Origin: a virus
IMG/VR virus record: IMGVR_UViG_3300046533_000104
Span: 1-42,355 of that record
Strand: one strand, 5' to 3'
Length of the DNA stretch: 42,355 nt
The translations under genes were made by a program, and so were the position numbers. The notes beneath the pieces are model-generated. The model made no database searches and was not told the DNA's origin. It saw only the letters and a list, made by a program, of their open reading frames with translations. Within the stretch, counting starts at the first letter, position 1, and each line of letters starts with the position of its first letter. Below, in pieces: positions 12,392 through 18,519 of the stretch.

Positions 12392-13036
12392 TCAACTCAA
12401 TGGGCGAGGCTCCGGCAGATCGAGAAGGTAGCCGCCTCCGCGAAGCCTGGACGCTCGTGAGCCTTGGATGTTCAGCCAACCCCACTTGGTGTCTGTGTGG
12501 TTGCTCGGAATCCCGACCAGCTCGTACAGATCCGCAACCGATGCGGACTCGTAGCGCGAGATGATGTCGAACATCTTCTCGATGACATCTTCCGCTTCCT
12601 GACGCGAGTTCAGGATGATCTCGTCGAAGTCATGCTGAGCCTTTGCCCGGCGCGTCATGCTGCGGGGCTGCTCCTGCTGCTGCATCGAGTAGCGGTTGTA
12701 GCTCACGTAGCCGGTCGGACCAGCTGCTGGCGGCGGAGCGCCATAGCCCCTGCGGTTCCGACGGGACTCACCGAACACCACGCGTTCCATCAACTGCGAG
12801 ACACCCTCGACCATCGTGTCCTTCGCAGCGGGGATCAGCACGTCAAATATGACGTAGTTGCCTGCCGTCTTGGCGTCGCCACCGAAGAACACGCCCTTGA
12901 ACTTCTTGCCGAGGCCGGGCTTGCGCCGAGTTGCCGGTTCTACAGTGACCTGCCTGATCTTCTTCTCCTCCGGAGTGGTCTCCGCAGGGTCCGGCTCACC
13001 CTTCCCTTGGAAGCTGTTGCCTGGAAAGTCGCTCAT
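12392..13036 (-). CDS. Conserved actinophage protein with Pro/Gln-rich linker (214 aa)
   Basis: ATG 13036 with AGAGGA 6 nt upstream. Basic N-terminus and FKGVFFGGDAKTAGNYVIFDVLIPAAKDTM (about 47-76), a conserved core; then an R/G/Y/P/Q-rich linker (about 92-125), then a C-terminal domain with DIISRYESASVADLYELVGIP and WGWLN. This layout occurs in actinophages of several groups. No catalytic motif is visible. It is preceded by a terminator and no obvious promoter. Confidence 0.65.
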   Translation of the reverse strand: MSDFPGNSFQGKGEPDPAETTPEEKKIRQVTVEPATRRKPGLGKKFKGVFFGGDAKTAGNYVIFDVLIPAAKDTMVEGVSQLMERVVFGESRRNRRGYGAPPPAAGPTGYVSYNRYSMQQQEQPRSMTRRAKAQHDFDEIILNSRQEAEDVIEKMFDIISRYESASVADLYELVGIPSNHTDTKWGWLNIQGSRASRLRGGGYLLDLPEPRPLS

Positions 13037-13060
13037 AAATATCCTCTGTTTGGGAAAATC

Positions 13061-13090
13061 AAAAACCTAAGTCCGTGTTAGGGGCTTAGG
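13061..13090 (-). terminator. Intrinsic terminator after the 89-aa gene
   Basis: Minus strand: CCTAAG stem (13085-13090) pairing with CTTAGG (13066-13071), loop containing CCCCTAACACGGA, followed by TTTTTGATTTT. Confidence 0.75.
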
Positions 13091-13099
13091 CTCTGCTTG

Positions 13100-13369
13100 T
13101 TAGGCAGTGGGAGTTTCAACTTCAACAACTGTGGTGGTCTTACGGGCCTTGAGGGCGGCGTAGCGCGAGGCGGTCTTGTCGACAATCGCATTGGTCACCG
13201 GCGACAGCTTGTAGGCGACGTACTGGCCGAATGCCATCGTACCAATCTGGGCAGTGGTGCTGTCCGTATTGATTTCGGTGTATTCGGAGAGTGCGGCTTC
13301 TGTGGCTTTCGCGGTGGAAATGGCGACTGACTGACGAAGGACGGTCTTGGCGACGAACTTCTTGGTCAT
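13100..13369 (-). CDS. Hypothetical protein (89 aa)
   Basis: ATG 13369 with GGAG 6 nt upstream. Basic N-terminus MTKKFVAKTVLRQS, Ala/Thr-rich helices, no clear membrane span, Val/Thr-rich end. The promoter-like element ends about 25 nt upstream and a terminator follows, so it can be transcribed as a single-gene unit. I do not recognise it. Confidence 0.6.
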   Translation of the reverse strand: MTKKFVAKTVLRQSVAISTAKATEAALSEYTEINTDSTTAQIGTMAFGQYVAYKLSPVTNAIVDKTASRYAALKARKTTTVVEVETPTA

Positions 13370-13392
13370 AATGATCTCCAGGGTTAGTAGTG

Positions 13393-13425
13393 GGTTCTCT
13401 TATCTAAGGCCGTGTTTTTTACGCG
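13393..13425 (-). promoter_or_regulatory. Recurrent promoter-like element, copy 2
   Basis: Minus strand: CGCGTAAAAAACACGGCC followed by TTAGATAAGAGAACCC; -10-like TTAGAT at 13402-13407. Upstream of the 89-residue gene. Confidence 0.65.
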
Positions 13426-13443
13426 AGATCCCACCGCTAACGC

Positions 13444-13980
13444 CTACTTCACGTCTTCCACCACCGCTTCTCCCGACGCCAGCTGCGGGGCCAGGAGAAG
13501 GAACTGATCCGGCGGCATAGCCTTGATTTCTTCCGGCGTGTAAATACGCGCATCCTTCTTCACTTCCGGAACGTCCATCTCCAGCGCCTGCTGCTTGGCG
13601 AGTTCGGTCGCTTCCTCGATCAGATCCGCAGGCATGATGGCCGTGATGAAGCTTGCCGCCAGCTCGGCGTCCATCACGAGTTCCATGAAGAATGCCTCAT
13701 AGGCGTTGGACTGGCTGAACTCCAACCAGTTCTCCTCGTTCTTGATGTGACGCTTCCCATCGGGAGACTTCACGCCATAGGACGCCTTGATGAAGTCCTC
13801 CATCTCCTTCATGATCACGAGACCGTTCTCGGCCTTGATCATGCGCTCCATGGACGCCTTCAAACCGCCTTCATGAGCGAGTTCGAGCCTGATGATATCC
13901 ACCTTGGAGAGATGGAAATATAGCTCGTCCTCACGGGGTTCCCCGTTGAAGTCGACGTACTTCACGGTTTTCTTCAGCAT
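13444..13980 (-). CDS. Conserved phage protein, possible tail-assembly-chaperone-like (178 aa)
   Basis: MLKKTVKYVDFNGEPREDEL at the N-terminus, then HLSKVDIIRLELAHEGGL and KASYGVKSPDGKRHIKNEE, a family I recognise from phages of Gram-positive bacteria and which is sometimes placed with tail assembly chaperones. It is not next to the tape measure here, so that role is uncertain. The start ATG overlaps the stop of the 32-residue gene (TAATG). No Shine-Dalgarno is visible; instead a perfect 20-bp palindrome ends at the start codon. Confidence 0.65.
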   Translation of the reverse strand: MLKKTVKYVDFNGEPREDELYFHLSKVDIIRLELAHEGGLKASMERMIKAENGLVIMKEMEDFIKASYGVKSPDGKRHIKNEENWLEFSQSNAYEAFFMELVMDAELAASFITAIMPADLIEEATELAKQQALEMDVPEVKKDARIYTPEEIKAMPPDQFLLLAPQLASGEAVVEDVK

Positions 13981-13999
13981 TAACGGACCGGTCCGTTAA
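13980..13999. promoter_or_regulatory. Perfect 20-bp palindrome at a start codon
   Basis: TTAACGGACCGGTCCGTTAA is self-complementary over its whole length. It covers the last codons and stop of the 32-residue gene and touches the ATG of the 178-residue gene. It could be a dimeric repressor operator or, in RNA, a hairpin controlling re-initiation. Confidence 0.6.
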
Positions 14000-14078
14000 G
14001 AAAGTAGTGGGTGAAGAGGATACCTGCGCAGACCCTCACCACTGTTGCCGTCGGAATATGAATGACAATCTCGGTCAC
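13980..14078 (-). CDS. 32-residue coupled small protein
   Basis: GTG 14078 overlaps the stop of the 46-residue gene (GTGA); the stop overlaps the next ATG. The sequence EIVIHIPTATVVRVCAGILF has a moderately hydrophobic segment and ends THYFLNGPVR, the last residues being encoded by the palindrome. Evidence is coupling only. Confidence 0.45.
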   Translation of the reverse strand: MTEIVIHIPTATVVRVCAGILFTHYFLNGPVR

Positions 14079-14215
14079 TTCTTGTTTTCCTCCTCGTCGC
14101 GTTCCTTGATTTTGGCCAGAAGGGCCTCAAGGCTCTTGTTTGTATCGGCAAGGGTCAGACCCAACTTGGTCATAACCCTCACCAACTCCTGAATATCCCT
14201 ACGCTGCGGTTCCAC
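14075..14215 (-). CDS. Small coiled-coil protein (46 aa)
   Basis: GTG 14215 shares a base with the TAG stop of the DUF6353-like gene (TAGTG). VEPQRRDIQELVRVMTKLGL then TLADTNKSLEALLAKIKERD is a long amphipathic helix with a charged tail. Function unknown; an oligomerising helper is plausible. Confidence 0.55.
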   Translation of the reverse strand: MEPQRRDIQELVRVMTKLGLTLADTNKSLEALLAKIKERDEEENKK

Positions 14216-15024
14216 TAGTACACGTGCTTTCCGTAATCCGGGACTGGCGGGAAGTGATACTCCATCGCCACACACGGGCGGTTGTCGCTAGACAGGTGTG
14301 ATGAGAACTTGATCTCGAGACGGTTGTCGAGGTTGAACCCAAGCACATCCGACATGCCGTTCGGCGGTAGGCCCAGCTCGTCGTAGAACGCACTCAGGCT
14401 GGCGTAGTTGCAGTTGACGATCTCGAAGTTGATCTTGTTCTCGGCCTGCTTGATCGCTTCGACACTGCTCATGAAATATCGCCCGGAATACACGTCGTAG
14501 CAGAGCACCTCACCGTTGCCGATGATGATGATTTCGCTCGACTCGACCGGATGCTCAGCAAGTTTCTTTGCGACGATCTCATCGCGGATGGCCTGCTCTT
14601 TGCCCGGCCCGAGCTTCTCGACGACCTTCTCCTTGTACTCCTGCAAGGCTTTGTCGGATATGGTGTAGGCAGCGGCCAGCGCAGCGATCTCTTTCGAGGC
14701 CAGACGATTGGCCAGGACGATCGCAAGGATCGTGGTAGTGCCCATGATGATCGGTGGGATGAACTCGCGCCACGTAAGCTTGAGTTTCTCCTCACGAGTG
14801 AGGGGCTCCATCTTGTCGAAAGCTTTGTCACCAAACTCAGCCTTGACCCGGATGGCACGCTCAAGGTGCGCATTGTCGATCAGCTCATCCGCCCTGAGAA
14901 CGGCCTTGCCTGTCAGAACCGAGGTCGTGATAACCCCCGCCACACCAACGCCCGTGAGGATGCTAGCGCTGTTGTCGTTCAGGAAATATGACGCTTTGCC
15001 GAACAGTTCACCCAGTGAATTCAC
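14215..15024 (-). CDS. DUF6353-like membrane protein, paralogue B (269 aa)
   Basis: Starts at GTG 15024. Two hydrophobic helices (SILTGVGVAGVITTSVLTG around residues 20-38 and FIPPIIMGTTTILAIVLANR about 90-109) flank a charged helix, followed by ALAAAYTISDKALQEYKEKV and a soluble domain ending in an acidic-aromatic segment. It matches paralogue A (11322-12236) in layout and in the AAYTxxDxAxxxYxxxV helix. Overlaps the 53-residue membrane protein by 17 nt. Role unknown. Confidence 0.7.
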   Translation of the reverse strand: MNSLGELFGKASYFLNDNSASILTGVGVAGVITTSVLTGKAVLRADELIDNAHLERAIRVKAEFGDKAFDKMEPLTREEKLKLTWREFIPPIIMGTTTILAIVLANRLASKEIAALAAAYTISDKALQEYKEKVVEKLGPGKEQAIRDEIVAKKLAEHPVESSEIIIIGNGEVLCYDVYSGRYFMSSVEAIKQAENKINFEIVNCNYASLSAFYDELGLPPNGMSDVLGFNLDNRLEIKFSSHLSSDNRPCVAMEYHFPPVPDYGKHVY

Positions 15025-15169
15025 GGCGGAACCTTTCTGTTTGTTTGAAGTGTTTGTCCGCGTACTGCTCGTGCTTCCAGATCTCGTACTTCTGAGCGAC
15101 CTGACCTGCTACCCACCAGAGTGCCGTCCAGAATATAAGAGCGGCTATGAAAGCGTACAGGAACGTCAT
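15008..15169 (-). CDS. Small membrane protein (53 aa)
   Basis: ATG 15169 overlaps the preceding stop (ATGA). MTFLYAFIAALIFWTALWWV is one membrane span followed by a basic, amphipathic tail (KYEIWKHEQYADKHFKQTER). It overlaps the DUF6353-like start. Confidence 0.6.
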   Translation of the reverse strand: MTFLYAFIAALIFWTALWWVAGQVAQKYEIWKHEQYADKHFKQTERFRREFTG

Positions 15170-15327
15170 CGCTTGACGCCGAGGGCTCCTGTGTTACGCT
15201 TCAATGCCCGACGTTCTGCGACCTCACGACTTGACGCTCGCACCTGAACAGTTCTCGTCACGCCATTGACGAACTCTAGCGTGATGAAATATAGAGTCTG
15301 TTTGCTAGATGTCTTCAGGAACCTCAC
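15166..15327 (-). CDS. Small basic protein (53 aa)
   Basis: GTG 15327 overlaps the preceding stop (GTGA). VRFLKTSSKQTLYFITLEFV, NGVTRTVQVRASSREVAERR, ALKRNTGALGVKR: a beta-hairpin-like N-terminus and a basic helix. Coupled on both sides. Unknown function. Confidence 0.55.
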   Translation of the reverse strand: MRFLKTSSKQTLYFITLEFVNGVTRTVQVRASSREVAERRALKRNTGALGVKR

Positions 15328-15440
15328 CGCCCCCTCATCTCACGGACAAAAATCCAGATGAGCCAGAACCCACCTGTGACGACGACCAGAGCTGCATCGA
15401 AGATGAACTTCATCAGTCCGTACTTCCTGCGCGTGCGCAT
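15324..15440 (-). CDS. Small membrane protein (38 aa)
   Basis: ATG 15440 with AAGGAG 7 nt upstream. MRTRRKYGLMKFIFDAALVV then VTGGFWLIWIFVREMRGR: basic N-terminus, one span, basic end (N-in/C-in ambiguous). It follows directly after the T-run of the structured RNA candidate. A longer reading upstream would run through the RNA repeats and is rejected. Confidence 0.6.
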   Translation of the reverse strand: MRTRRKYGLMKFIFDAALVVVTGGFWLIWIFVREMRGR

Positions 15441-15488
15441 GTGTTTCTCCTTGTGTTTGAAAAAAATGTAAGCCTGTGTTTGTATCAG

Positions 15489-15534
15489 TGTCGTACAGTT
15501 ACGTCTCTGATAAAGATGTCGTACAGTTACGTCT
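15489..15534. repeat. Direct repeat, 18 nt x 2
   Basis: TGTCGTACAGTTACGTCT at 15489-15506 and again at 15517-15534, identical; part of the structured RNA candidate. Confidence 0.9.
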
Positions 15535-15567
15535 TCTTCATAGGCTTTAGAGAGATCCCTTGGGCGG

Positions 15568-15610
15568 CCTCCCATAACTGGGTGACCTATAACCTCCCAT
15601 AACTGGGTGA
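15568..15610. repeat. Direct repeat, 18 nt x 2
   Basis: CCTCCCATAACTGGGTGA at 15568-15585 and 15593-15610, identical, spaced 25 nt start to start; part of the structured RNA candidate. Confidence 0.9.
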
Positions 15611-15617
15611 TCAGGGA

Positions 15618-15648
15618 TCTCTCTATCTTAGGCCGTGTTTACGCCGCG
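15618..15648 (-). promoter_or_regulatory. Recurrent promoter-like element, copy 3
   Basis: Minus strand: ATCGCGGCGTAAACACGGCC then TAAGATAGAGAGATCCC; -10-like TAAGAT at 15625-15630. It overlaps the last codons of the 126-residue gene and would start the structured RNA. Confidence 0.65.
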
Positions 15649-16019
15649 ATCGGTTCGACTGGAAAACCAGCCTTACCGAGGACCTTCAAGGTATGGCCTG
15701 CGACGTGAGCGTTCTTGCCACTCAAATGCTGAGCGACCTGTGCGGGAGACACACCAAGCGCCCTTGCTGCGGCGGCCTGGCTAGCCCACACTTCCTTGGT
15801 GGTGAGGCTCTGAACGACGTTGCCGGGATCGCCCAAAGCAGCAATAACGATGTTGGTCGTCGGAGAGCAGATCTGCACCTTGAAGGCATCCACGATCTGG
15901 ATGACCTCTGCGTTATTGGCGAGTGCAACACCAGCAACGCAACCCACCACGAGGCAGACACCACCAACGATGTACTCTTCCTTGTGGTCCTTCAGATGTT
16001 GCTTGGTACGTTCGAACAT
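15639..16019 (-). CDS. Membrane-anchored NUMOD1-like DNA-binding protein (126 aa)
   Basis: ATG 16019 with CAGGAG 5 nt upstream; a longer reading to 16106 crosses a hairpin and is rejected. Residues about 19-38 (IVGGVCLVVGCVAGVALANN) span the membrane. The C-terminal part, EVWASQAAAARALGVSPAQV then AQHLSGKNAHVAGHTLKVLG, is the NUMOD1/HTH pattern (S-Q-A-A-A-A-R-A-L-G-V-S, H-L-S-G-K, V-x-G-H-x-L/F). It would tether DNA, or RNA, to the membrane. Similar fusions are common in actinophages; the target is unknown. Its stop lies inside the promoter element. Confidence 0.65.
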   Translation of the reverse strand: MFERTKQHLKDHKEEYIVGGVCLVVGCVAGVALANNAEVIQIVDAFKVQICSPTTNIVIAALGDPGNVVQSLTTKEVWASQAAAARALGVSPAQVAQHLSGKNAHVAGHTLKVLGKAGFPVEPIAA

Positions 16020-16055
16020 GACGCTCCTGTGTTTGAAATATGATTGGAAGAAAGT

Positions 16056-16148
16056 GTGACTCCGTGTTGGAGTCAGAGTTTGAGAGACTTGCAGCATCAT
16101 CTGCATGGGATTATCGACTGGGCTTATAGCTCAGTCATCCTGTCTCTC
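16056..16148 (-). ncRNA. Second structured RNA or leader candidate
   Basis: Starts about at the predicted start of copy 4. The outer stem GAGAGAC/GTCTCTC (16142-16148 with 16082-16088) encloses GGATGACTG...CAGTC-GATA-ATCC (9 bp with a 4-nt bulge) and GCAG-ATGATG-CTGC. A terminator-like hairpin follows at 16057-16075. The plan (element, stem beginning at the start site, inner hairpins, terminal hairpin) is like the RNA at 15460-15624, but the sequence differs. Confidence 0.5.
16057..16075 (-). terminator. Hairpin of terminator type
   Basis: TGACTCC-AACAC-GGAGTCA on the minus strand, perfect 7-bp stem, same AACAC loop as the other terminators here, but followed only by CACTTTCTTCC, so termination may be partial. 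Confidence 0.5.
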
Positions 16149-16174
16149 TACTCTATGGCGTGTTTTTGACGCGA
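16141..16174 (-). promoter_or_regulatory. Recurrent promoter-like element, copy 4
   Basis: Minus strand: GTTCGCGTCAAAAACACGCC then ATAGAGTAGAGAGACA; -10-like TAGAGT at 16150-16155. Leads into the second structured RNA and the 126-residue gene. Confidence 0.6.
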
Positions 16175-16175
16175 A

Positions 16176-16550
16176 CTACTTTGCCCAGCGAGAACCGTTG
16201 GACAGATCACGGCAAACGAAGTCCACGGTGACCCCAGTGTCCTCGTCGAGCTGGTACTGAACGTTGCGACGGATGTTCTCTTCATCGGTCACGTACGCCA
16301 TCATCTTGCGCATGACATCCTCGTTGTCCCCCACGAGGTCCATCTCGATGCACCACTGCCCGTCCTTGAGCGCACGCTCCTGAACGAGGTTGATGATGGT
16401 CTCGATCGGGGTGTTCTTCACGAGATCGTTGTAGCCTGCGAACTCGACACCATGGTAGATGCCGATAGTGAAGATGTTCTTGCCGGATCCTGAAGCGATT
16501 GCCTGATCGCGGCTGATCTCGTCCTGGTCTTTCCTGTTACGTCCGAACAT
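16176..16550 (-). CDS. Hypothetical protein (124 aa)
   Basis: ATG 16550 with AAGGA 6 nt upstream. Basic, charged start (MFGRNRKDQDEISRDQ), then an alpha/beta domain with FTIGIYHGVEFAGYNDLVKN, helical NLVQERAL, strands QWCIEMDLVG and GVTVDFVCRDL. No membrane span. A terminator hairpin lies between it and the upstream gene. I do not recognise a family. Confidence 0.6.
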   Translation of the reverse strand: MFGRNRKDQDEISRDQAIASGSGKNIFTIGIYHGVEFAGYNDLVKNTPIETIINLVQERALKDGQWCIEMDLVGDNEDVMRKMMAYVTDEENIRRNVQYQLDEDTGVTVDFVCRDLSNGSRWAK

Positions 16551-16566
16551 GATGTTCCTTGTGATT

Positions 16567-16605
16567 GAAAAACGAAAGCCCTAATCCAGGTTTTGGACTA
16601 GGGCT
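16567..16605 (-). terminator. Intrinsic terminator after the 67-aa gene
   Basis: Minus strand stem AGCCCTAGTCCA/TGGATTAGGGCT (one mismatch), loop AAAACC region, then TTCGTTTTT. Confidence 0.8.
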
Positions 16606-16611
16606 AGAGGT

Positions 16612-16815
16612 TTACCTGATGTAGGTCTGTGCTGCATGAACTGCAATCTTGCTAAGCATGTCGAGGCTTTTGTAAGCGACGATGATCACGACTGCACCCG
16701 TAGTAATATCGGCGGCTACATCGCTGTAGTCAACCGTTCCTGCGGGGACAGTGGGTTCATCGGACTGATGGTCCTTGACGAGCTTAACTAGAAATGACTT
16801 GTTCTTGAACAACAT
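16612..16815 (-). CDS. Small membrane protein (67 aa)
   Basis: ATG 16815 with AAAGGA 5 nt upstream. Charged N-terminal part (MLFKNKSFLVKLVKDHQSDE), then DITTGAVVIIVAYKSLDML as a single span. Promoter element upstream and terminator downstream make a single-gene unit. Function unknown. Confidence 0.6.
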   Translation of the reverse strand: MLFKNKSFLVKLVKDHQSDEPTVPAGTVDYSDVAADITTGAVVIIVAYKSLDMLSKIAVHAAQTYIR

Positions 16816-16831
16816 GGGGTCCTTTCAGTTT

Positions 16832-16866
16832 GGGTTCTCTCACTTTAGTCCGTGTTTCCCACGCGC
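16832..16866 (-). promoter_or_regulatory. Recurrent promoter-like element, copy 5
   Basis: Minus strand: GCGCGTGGGAAACACGGAC then TAAAGTGAGAGAACCC; -10-like TAAAGT at 16842-16847. It overlaps the end of the 75-residue gene, which it makes end in RVGNTD. Confidence 0.65.
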
Positions 16867-17072
16867 TTAGGCTTGACGTTAGGGAGCGCGATATAATCGA
16901 ACTCATCCAAACTGATCTGGTGCTTGTTCAAGATGCTGACCAAATATGACATCTGCTCATTAGCGGACGTAACAGCTTCAGCCTGCTTCTCGATGACGCT
17001 ATTCATCTTCAAGACGCGGTACTCCTGCCAGGTGATGATGCCCAGCAATATGAGTTTGTCGTAGGGAATCAT
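16845..17072 (-). CDS. Hypothetical helical protein (75 aa)
   Basis: ATG 17072 is preceded by AGGGGGG about 11 nt upstream and follows the Acb2-like stop. MIPYDKLILLGIITWQEYRV, then a helix with heptad-like spacing (EKQAEAVTSANEQMSYLVSI) and NKHQISLDEFDYIALPN. Cotranscribed with the Acb2-like gene. Unknown function. Confidence 0.55.
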   Translation of the reverse strand: MIPYDKLILLGIITWQEYRVLKMNSVIEKQAEAVTSANEQMSYLVSILNKHQISLDEFDYIALPNVKPKRVGNTD

Positions 17073-17088
17073 GGCTTCTGCGTCCCCC

Positions 17089-17289
17089 CTATCGTTTGGG
17101 CCATCCTTGTGGGAATACATCTCTACACACACGAACGGCAAGCAAAGATGTGCATTGATGAATGCCTTGTTGAAATTCGCGCATTTCACTCGGATGTTGT
17201 GGTTCGAGTTTGAAGAATGCATTAGCTGCAGCAACGAGATTATCCATCACTACACCTTCTTCTTCTGTAAGTCCATCGTATCTTGCCAA
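17089..17289 (-). CDS. Acb2-like cyclic-nucleotide sponge (anti-CBASS candidate)
   Basis: 66 residues from TTG 17289 with AAGGA 6 nt upstream. The pattern LTEEEGVVMDNLVAAANAFF, then KLEPQHPSEMREFQQGIHQC, then LLAVRV and FPQGWP, is that of the short two-helix phage family containing Acb2 (and the related Tad1-type hairpin proteins). Family knowledge: Acb2 assembles into a hexamer that binds the cyclic nucleotides made by CBASS and so blocks effector activation. The conserved QHP, EF..GIH and the helix lengths fit; ligand binding cannot be shown from sequence. It lies between two terminator-separated small genes, among likely accessory functions. Confidence 0.65.
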   Translation of the reverse strand: MARYDGLTEEEGVVMDNLVAAANAFFKLEPQHPSEMREFQQGIHQCTSLLAVRVCRDVFPQGWPKR

Positions 17290-17307
17290 GATTTTTCCTT
17301 GTGATTG

Positions 17308-17347
17308 AAAAAATGAAAGCCTAAGTCCGTGTTGGGGACTTTTGGCT
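17308..17347 (-). terminator. Intrinsic terminator between the 44-aa and Acb2-like genes
   Basis: Minus strand: AAGCC-AAAAGTCC...GGACTT-AGGCTT stem around an AACAC loop, then TCATTTTTT. No promoter element lies between it and the Acb2-like gene, so that gene may depend on read-through. Confidence 0.7.
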
Positions 17348-17355
17348 TGGGATTA

Positions 17356-17490
17356 TTACCGGTTGATAATGATCTCGTATGTGCGGCCATTCGGGGTGTC
17401 GACGGTCTTAACGGTCTGACCCTTCCGGACGGCGTTAGCAATCTGGAAGAAGCCGGACACGTTTGACATCGAGTTACGAAGGTTGGTCAT
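17356..17490 (-). CDS. Small hypothetical protein (44 aa)
   Basis: ATG 17490, GAAAAGAG about 7 nt upstream. MTNLRNSMSNVSGFFQIANA, then VRKGQTVKTVDTPNGRTYEI, ending IINR. Soluble, with a strand-rich second half. Bounded by promoter element and terminator. Unknown function. Confidence 0.55.
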   Translation of the reverse strand: MTNLRNSMSNVSGFFQIANAVRKGQTVKTVDTPNGRTYEIIINR

Positions 17491-17513
17491 AGTAATCTCT
17501 TTTCAAAGTGGGT

Positions 17514-17550
17514 GGGTTCTCTCATCTTAGTCCATGTTTTTCACGCGAAC
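17514..17550 (-). promoter_or_regulatory. Recurrent promoter-like element, copy 6
   Basis: Minus strand: GTTCGCGTGAAAAACATGGA then CTAAGATGAGAGAACCC; -10-like TAAGAT at 17524-17529. Best representative of the family. Confidence 0.7.
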
Positions 17551-17551
17551 G

Positions 17552-17578
17552 AAAACCTAAGCCCGTGTTAGGGGCTTT
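17552..17578 (-). terminator. Intrinsic terminator after the 67-aa membrane gene
   Basis: Minus strand: AAGCCC-CTAACAC-GGGCTT stem-loop, then AGGTTTTC. It abuts promoter copy 6. Confidence 0.65.
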
Positions 17579-17583
17579 CGGTC

Positions 17584-17787
17584 TTAGAGGTTGAACTCTT
17601 GGGGAAACATCTTGGCGATGTCGTCGAGGGTGGCATTCGCCTTAGCAATGGCTGCTTCGAATTCTTCGTTGTGCTTCCTTTCCTGTCGCTTCTCATACGC
17701 GCGAGTGGCGTAATGGAAACTGACATAAAGGGCGCTTGCAACGATGATTCCGGAAAGCAGGGTGCTTTGGGTAGTGTTCTCAAACAT
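17584..17787 (-). CDS. Small membrane protein (67 aa)
   Basis: ATG 17787 with AAAGGA upstream. MFENTTQSTLLSGIIVASAL then YVSFHYATRAYEKRQERKHN: one N-terminal span, then a charged helix (EEFEAAIAKANATLDDIAKM). Single-gene unit between promoter copy 7 and a terminator. Function unknown. Confidence 0.6.
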   Translation of the reverse strand: MFENTTQSTLLSGIIVASALYVSFHYATRAYEKRQERKHNEEFEAAIAKANATLDDIAKMFPQEFNL

Positions 17788-17810
17788 GGTGGTGTTCCTT
17801 TGTAGTGGTG

Positions 17811-17845
17811 TATCTCTCATTTTACTCCATGTTTTTCACGCGAAC
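17811..17845 (-). promoter_or_regulatory. Recurrent promoter-like element, copy 7
   Basis: Minus strand: GTTCGCGTGAAAAACATGGA then GTAAAATGAGAGATAC; -10-like TAAAAT at 17819-17824. Confidence 0.7.
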
Positions 17846-17900
17846 GAATATAAAGACCTTTTTTCCGAATTCTCCCCCCGGGGAATTTTAGAGGCAAAAA

Positions 17901-17924
17901 ATGTCAGCCCATGTTCCTAACGCG
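17901..17924 (-). promoter_or_regulatory. Degenerate promoter-like element
   Basis: Minus strand: CGCGTTAGGAACATGGGC then TGACAT; keeps CGCGTnnnnAACATGG but the -10 is poor. No gene follows it before copy 7; the stretch to 17846 contains a GC-rich CCCCGGGG core and T/A runs. Confidence 0.4.
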
Positions 17925-17951
17925 AAAAACTAAAGCCCGCGTTTGCGGGCC
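17925..17951 (-). terminator. Intrinsic terminator after the 93-aa gene
   Basis: Minus strand: GCCCGC-AAAC-GCGGGC followed by TTTAGTTTTTC. Confidence 0.8.
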
Positions 17952-17980
17952 CTAGTCTGATCTTCCTGGGGAGGAGTGTG

Positions 17981-18262
17981 TTACTTAAGTCTCATGGCGA
18001 ATGACAGTGCTTTCGTCGTGATCACGTGCGAATTCTCGTACATGAGAATCATGGCGATACCGATCAGATTCGCCGCAACATTGGCTTGGGTGTCAGGGCT
18101 GACACGCTCGGGCTTTTCTAGTTCCTTGAGCGCAAACAGCCTTTCCACTTGGGTCAGGGTTGTAGCGTAATCATCTTCAGTAGGCTTCTTTGTCTTCAAT
18201 ATAGATTGAATTCGAGTGATCTCGGTGTCTAGCGCGGTAAGCGCCTTGGGCTTCTTAAACAT
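17981..18262 (-). CDS. Helical protein with C-terminal membrane span (93 aa)
   Basis: ATG 18262 with AAAGGA upstream. N-terminal charged helices (TALDTEITRIQSILKTKKPT and TQVERLFALKELEKPERVSP), then NVAANLIGIAMILMYENSHV, a moderately hydrophobic segment. The pattern recurs in actinophage genomes; function unknown. Promoter copy 8 precedes it and a strong terminator follows. Confidence 0.65.
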   Translation of the reverse strand: MFKKPKALTALDTEITRIQSILKTKKPTEDDYATTLTQVERLFALKELEKPERVSPDTQANVAANLIGIAMILMYENSHVITTKALSFAMRLK

Positions 18263-18280
18263 GGGTTCCTTTCATAGGGG

Positions 18281-18310
18281 TTCTCATCTTAGTCCATGTT
18301 TCCCACGCGG
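18281..18310 (-). promoter_or_regulatory. Recurrent promoter-like element, copy 8
   Basis: Minus strand: ACCGCGTGGGAAACATGGAC then TAAGATGAGAACCCC; -10-like TAAGAT at 18286-18291. It overlaps the end of the 76-residue gene, which it makes end in RVGNMD. Confidence 0.65.
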
Positions 18311-18519
18311 TTGTTCAGCCCATCCGAAACCACCTTGAACACGACTTGATCCGCCTGCTCAAGCGTTGCTGGATCATCTTCGAGTTCCAGCTGAAACCCT
18401 ATCGAATCTGGAGTGTGAGTTATCCGCATAATGCCCGAATATGACGTTGACTTGCGGACAAGTAGAGCCACAATCACTACAGCTTCGAATATAGCTACGA
18501 TCCCCAGGATCAATGTCAA
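18289..18519 (-). CDS. Small membrane protein (76 aa)
   Basis: TTG 18519 with AGGAAGG upstream. MTLILGIVAIFEAVVIVALL is the single span; the rest is a soluble acidic domain (IGFQLELEDDPATLEQADQV). It follows the Gp37-like tail gene by 13 nt and is last in the tail operon. Function unknown. Confidence 0.55.
   Translation of the reverse strand: MTLILGIVAIFEAVVIVALLVRKSTSYSGIMRITHTPDSIGFQLELEDDPATLEQADQVVFKVVSDGLNNRVGNMD

Follow-up and report, generated by a model that had tools for sequence, protein, structure and literature searches.

Structure of the element and its gene setting

The locus described here raises the question of what an intergenic phage RNA does that displays one hairpin tip twice and then a second, different tip twice. 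It lies in the window, i.e., the whole stretch of 42,355 nucleotides analysed (IMG/VR record IMGVR_UViG_3300046533_000104), a viral contig with siphovirus structural genes and genes for a large terminase subunit, a DNA polymerase and an RNA-polymerase-like protein, the relatives of which are Gordonia, Streptomyces and Arthrobacter phages. A gene at 1-1908 on the minus strand matches phrog_4291, labeled RNA-dependent RNA polymerase (E 1.5e-269). The RNA element is flanked by the genes of a 126-aa helix-turn-helix protein (15639-16019) and of a 38-aa membrane protein (15324-15440), and the features of the locus are the following:

15639..16019, minus strand: 126-aa membrane-anchored protein with a NUMOD-like helix-turn-helix, proposed as partner of the RNA (weak Pfam matches)
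15618..15649, minus strand: promoter-like element TCGC..AAACACGG.CTAAGAT.GAGA, of a repeat family upstream of several window genes
15548..15627, minus strand: domain 1, two hairpins with the same tip closed by a 13-bp stem (z -5.4 when folded by itself)
15591..15612, minus strand: hairpin A, GAUC-A-CCCAGUUAUGGG-A-GGUU (fold and tip family comparison)
15566..15587, minus strand: hairpin B, GGUC-A-CCCAGUUAUGGG-A-GGCC (fold and tip family comparison)
15471..15546, minus strand: domain 2, two AGA-CGUA-ACUG-UACG-ACA hairpins closed by a common stem (z -3.3 when folded by itself)
15513..15538, minus strand: hairpin C, AAGA-[tip]-UCUU (compensatory changes in eight copies)
15483..15512, minus strand: hairpin D, UAUCAG-[tip]-CUGAUA (compensatory changes in eight copies)
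15460..15466, minus strand: U7 run, a terminator-like RNA end (sequence)
15324..15440, minus strand: gene of a 38-aa small membrane protein (phrog_8761), downstream of the RNA

On the minus strand from 15627 to 15460, the sequence folds into two junction domains that each carry one hairpin tip in duplicate, followed by a run of seven T; the two pairs of identical mini-hairpins and the T7 run announced by the earlier note are all present. The closing stem of domain 1, given there as 12 bp, exists and measures 13 bp, and that of domain 2 is weaker. The minimum free energy of the whole element is -67.2 kcal/mol versus a mean of -43.6 for dinucleotide shuffles (z -5.25), and none of 200 shuffles folds as well. 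As RNA, the tip of hairpins A and B reads A-CCCA-GUUA-UGGG-A. The tips of each domain stand on unlike lower helices: those of the second pair differ and both pair (AAGA/UCUU and UAUCAG/CUGAUA), as had been claimed, and the same holds for the first pair (GAUC/GGUU and GGUC/GGCC), which, like the A.A mismatches that bound both tip types, is a feature absent from the earlier note. Rfam 15 contains no match to the window at the gathering score, to positions 13000-18500 at E 0.5 or to five related loci at E 0.1.

The promoter-like element contains a -10-like TAAGAT (15625-15630), and its layout matches the consensus TCGCA.aAAttACAcG.CCTATAATGAGA derived from 119 sites in related phages. For Gordonia phage Vardy, a 50-bp promoter motif with TATAAT has been described in the same genome region (PMC9671010); its passages on the promoter, rho-dependent terminators and membrane genes make no mention of structured RNA. 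From the promoter near 15630 to the U run near 15460, a separate small RNA about 160 nt long would be transcribed.

Such an RNA could be a cis-acting leader or attenuator that controls read-through into the 38-aa gene or operon. In the window and in contig G005, where a homolog of the 38-aa protein occupies the same slot, the U run is closely followed by this small gene, and no promoter-like motif was seen in the interval. However, in most Gordonia phages examined a promoter separates the RNA from the next gene, and related RNAs occur on either side of the helix-turn-helix gene or inside it, which makes a role as attenuator improbable.

Two further elements of the window are worth recording. 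The helix-turn-helix gene is preceded by a second structured leader (16082-16150, minus strand), which itself follows another promoter-like element and in which a 7-bp closing stem, GAGAGAC/GUCUCUC, encloses two unlike hairpins (z -4.78 for 16018-16170). At 13062, 17316 and 17552 on the minus strand, a repeated hairpin CCTAAG...CTTAGG is followed by a T run, likely a terminator form that these sites share.

A class of small RNAs in actinophages

About 25 related RNAs were found in about 17 actinophage genomes and contigs (phages of Gordonia, Rhodococcus and Arthrobacter, and IMG/VR). In most of them, a conserved TATAATGAGA promoter marks the start, the two ends pair and two to four near-identical tips are displayed, and many have a U run at the end. 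The window element shares this build: it has a promoter of its own and ends that pair, its near-identical tips, two or more in number, stand on different helices, and it lies beside a helix-turn-helix gene. The class seems to be undescribed, and the open-access literature yielded no account of such RNAs.

A scan for the second tip in exact form, occurring twice, led to a single contig, L014. There the same 18-nt tip stands twice, with one letter changed in one of the copies, on helices unlike those of the window, within an RNA with a long closing stem and a T run. Comparable RNAs occupy the same slot in Gordonia, Rhodococcus and Arthrobacter phages with the helix-turn-helix gene, and additional contigs were recovered by further pattern scans. 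Tip families, assigned by eye, include RUC-AUUGC-GAY, AGA-stem-loop-stem-ACA, A-CC..UUAUG..GG-A and others. The family of hairpins A and B recurs in Pepy6 (two copies) and in contigs G006 and G007 (three each). Contigs L014 and G003 also have the tips of hairpins C and D. The tips of a given RNA are identical or almost so (only similar in OhMyWard, Avazak and Untouchable), and between phages they are different or recur on other scaffolds. In contig G007, for example, one tip stands on three lower helices (GAUGG/CCAUC, GACGG/CCGUC and GUGG/CCAC), and two RNAs have a common scaffold with different tips, as do the RNAs of Pepy6 and Odesza. Contig G002 holds four tip copies, including an A-U to G-C change within the tip stem.

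Not all pattern matches belong to this class. Those of the CCAGTTATGG twin scan are mostly repetitive coding sequence, many of those to the first tip family are coding repeats, and the 20 matches of a degenerate scan for the second family, besides L014, are apparently due to chance. The match at L104:5581 also lies in coding sequence and was kept as a nested member of the class, as it has a full set of promoter, closing stem and T run. Automatic detection of twin hairpins returned none in shuffled sequences; the unrelated control loci, which had been picked for repeats, are an unfair background for this count. In Arthrobacter phage Qui, annotated gene 76 overlaps a three-copy hairpin RNA (L036:3447-3581) and may not be a real protein gene.

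That the element is an ordinary intergenic terminator or mRNA-stabilising structure, repetitive by accident, would agree with the simple terminator hairpins that are common between genes of these phages. A terminator, however, can do without both the two to four copies and the placing of identical tips on different helices, and it is the tips that are conserved across phages while the remainder is not; this explanation is therefore considered very unlikely. Even less probable is a switch in which the two domains kiss through their loops or fold in an alternative way, as the earlier note had suggested. The complementarity of six nucleotides on which the suggestion was built (CAGUUA in one tip type, UAACUG in the other) is real, and shuffled tips match it in 1.3% of cases. 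However, a 6-nt match occurs in no other genome examined, the partner loops vary (ACUG, ACAC and ACUC in the second tip family), and in other genomes with two tip types the complementarity between these never exceeds 4 nt; kissing loops were accordingly dismissed as a general feature of the class.

Compensatory changes in two tip families

The earlier note had proposed selection on structure and had named a lack of compensatory changes in related phages as the finding that would count against it; such changes are present in relatives. In the second tip family (AGA/ACA type, eight copies), 95% of cells are paired and six of eight pairs changed on both sides, and the covariation score was reached neither by any of 500 shuffles nor by slid partners. 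In a third family, UC-AUUGC-GA (12 copies, those with a lower helix offset by a bulge being omitted from the alignment), four of six pairs changed on both sides, and again none of 500 shuffles reached the score. Because both alignments are short, include relatives and were laid out on the proposed structure, and because of the omitted copies, the shuffles overstate the significance; despite these caveats, slid partners score much worse. As far as can be judged from sequence comparison, selection on RNA structure is thus supported.

This evidence also bears on the possibility that the repeats are DNA operators of the adjacent helix-turn-helix protein, in which case pairing would be a by-product of their palindromic nature. 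Tandem identical imperfect palindromes beside a helix-turn-helix gene are what such operators would look like, and both an energy-based comparison of sense and antisense (12/25) and a first wobble count (12 G.U, 17 A.C) gave null results. In contrast, the lower helices are unlike in sequence and yet paired, with compensatory changes, and the elements have long closing stems and U runs. Moreover, a wobble count restricted to shared helices gave 47 G.U versus 27 A.C (p 0.027) in the predicted RNA sense, which would favour selection at the RNA level but is suggestive only. Taken with these points, a function as DNA operators has a low probability.

Linkage of the RNA to a helix-turn-helix gene

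In all four contigs recovered by RNA pattern alone (L014, G005, G006 and G007), a helix-turn-helix gene adjoins the RNA, in L014 on the side opposite to that in the window. Among the relatives, the RNA lies upstream of this gene, downstream of it or inside it: the gene of G005 and one of the two of G006 contain complete RNA units nested in their coding sequence, with their own consensus promoter, closing stem and T run. Relative to Nadmeg, Untouchable carries a clean insertion of 560 nt that consists of gene plus RNA, with flanks that are 96-97% identical, and relative to Poco6, Pepy6 carries gene and RNA together, about 735 nt. Of 18 genomes with the gene (L014, the gene of which runs off the contig end, being scored as gene-bearing), a rule blind to the protein finds such RNAs in 10, and in none of eight genomes without it (Fisher one-sided about 0.008, in a test that is not fully independent, since the genomes were partly selected for gene or motif). 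In the subset selected by gene alone, the figures are 6/13 and 0/8. Gravy and Tanis have the gene, and a multi-tip RNA was not found in them. Altogether, this distribution suggests that RNA and protein move between phages as a pair, as one unit.

This linkage has to be weighed against a reading in which the RNA titrates a host protein as decoy or sponge, e.g., an RNA-binding defence or regulatory protein, and the neighbouring gene is a mere fellow traveller in an accessory cassette. The same tip families occur in distant phages on different scaffolds, as a conserved target would predict, and further structured RNAs, one of them tRNA-like but lacking an anticodon loop, are found in the same regions. 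Against a host decoy stands the linkage to one protein family, which is tight, repeated and even nested, and a pattern scan of bacterial genomes for one tip family gave a single, chance-like match in a Bacteroidetes contig. A host target is therefore regarded as unlikely.

Proposed function and comparison with known systems

Hairpins that bind proteins typically have a mismatch or bulge under a short apical stem. Identical tips built in this way, which stay constant while the rest of the RNA varies, fit the binding of protein in several copies, and the steady partnership with one gene makes the product of that gene the first candidate. In the proposed model, the RNA would fold into two closed domains, each showing two copies of one tip on unlike stems, and the tips would serve as repeated binding sites by which one RNA holds several protein copies in trans, most likely copies of the co-encoded membrane-anchored helix-turn-helix protein. 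The window RNA would accordingly be a cassette-borne multi-tip RNA that offers binding sites in trans to a protein, probably the co-encoded one, a reading that we hold to be about evenly poised between right and wrong. The protein-binding sponge of the earlier note comes close to it and is plausible, binding, like transcription, the identity of the protein and any effect in the cell, being what we infer.

What the protein itself could bind is indicated by its predicted fold. Twelve relatives have in common an N-terminal hydrophobic stretch and a C-terminal domain, and a weak I-HmuI_NUMOD-like Pfam match is found in six of seven. Matches in Pfam, PADLOC and NCBIfam are weak and mostly of helix-turn-helix, NUMOD-like or homing-endonuclease type. 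AlphaFold gives good confidence at residues ~65-112 only, and the best structural matches of this part, both with weak E-values, are a DNA-binding protein of Paulinella (8b6e) and the homing endonuclease I-HmuI (1u3e). From these models, binding to nucleic acid is a fair supposition, and that the nucleic acid is RNA is a guess. The positive-inside rule would allow the C-terminal domain to be placed outside the cytoplasm, a location unsuited to RNA binding. Similarity in the helix-turn-helix region is not significantly associated with a shared tip family (p 0.26; p 0.07 with one label corrected).

Phage operator hairpins, such as those of MS2, PP7 and lambda (boxB), consist of a short apical stem with a small loop, with a bulge below in MS2 and PP7, and the tips described here are similar in these respects. 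Those operators are cis sites in longer RNAs, whereas here multi-copy displays occur in a separate closed RNA.

Nearest in logic are RNA antitoxins of the ToxI type and protein sponges of the RsmZ type; for each of them, defining features were looked for and not found. In ToxIN, a type III toxin-antitoxin system, the repeated RNA units of ToxI, which has its own promoter and terminator, bind a co-encoded protein (PMC10853763), and here, too, repeated RNA units are linked to a protein gene, with the tips beside or inside it. However, ToxI is a tandem-repeat array cut by the ribonuclease toxin into units of typically 36-50 nt, whereas in the phage RNAs just tips of ~10-18 nt repeat, the flanks differ and direct repeats of whole 36-50 nt units are absent. 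The protein is also of another kind, being membrane-anchored with a NUMOD-like helix-turn-helix, and searches of Pfam, NCBIfam and PADLOC and a fold search of the helix-turn-helix protein found no ToxN-like ribonuclease. RsmZ is a small RNA with several stem-loops as protein sites that holds four RsmE dimers (PMC13287468), and RsmZ and CsrB thus resemble the arrangement proposed here. RsmZ binds a host protein of CsrA type through GGA motifs, which lie both in loops and in unpaired stretches. The phage tips, in contrast, come in many kinds but are uniform in any given RNA and are located beside a phage gene, and their loops (GUUA, ACUG, AUUGC and others) contain no GGA motif of the Csr/Rsm type.

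If the proposed model is correct, these phages harbour a small-RNA class with modular display, in which a constant scaffold presents several copies of swappable tips, tied to one protein family. A more specific version, held tentatively and rather doubted, is that each membrane-anchored helix-turn-helix protein is paired with an RNA showing interchangeable multi-copy tips on a reusable scaffold, and that coexisting pairs, as exemplified by the several gene-RNA pairs of the phage of contig G007, act as orthogonal addiction or superinfection-immunity modules. Untouchable and Nadmeg, near-identical phages with and without the cassette on a common Gordonia laboratory host, would then allow a direct test of the function.

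Other structured RNAs in related phages

Intergenic stretches of sequenced actinophages hold further unannotated structured RNAs. A tRNA-like RNA lies between a promoter and a T run in Gordonia phages (L039:6632-6856, L041:6347-6619 and L043:1273-1463); it has a T arm and, in the position of the anticodon loop, GCAA or a similar tetraloop. A long, rod-like conserved intergenic RNA with the core GGCGCGAAGAAUUGGA occurs at L038:2310-2582, L041:10793-11073, L042:5458-5733 and L043:5206-5479; its z is -9.7 in Gravy, and a scan of locus L038 gave no Rfam match. Upstream of the helix-turn-helix slot, and present with or without the cassette, is a conserved RNA UUGGCAAGGGU...GGAUGCCAARCUUAAACGACA (L038:3627-3796, L035:3830-3994 and L039:12020-12218). 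Another conserved RNA, with AAUCACAGUUUUARAUGGGCUGUGA, is found between a promoter and a T run at L037:1579-1823 and L040:6194-6449. A further type, which is devoid of repeated tips and reads CUUGAGUCGCUCCUUUAGGAGAGGCC...GAGCACUGAU in Gravy, lies beside the helix-turn-helix gene at L038:4196-4360, L035:4376-4500 and L045:2705-2840.
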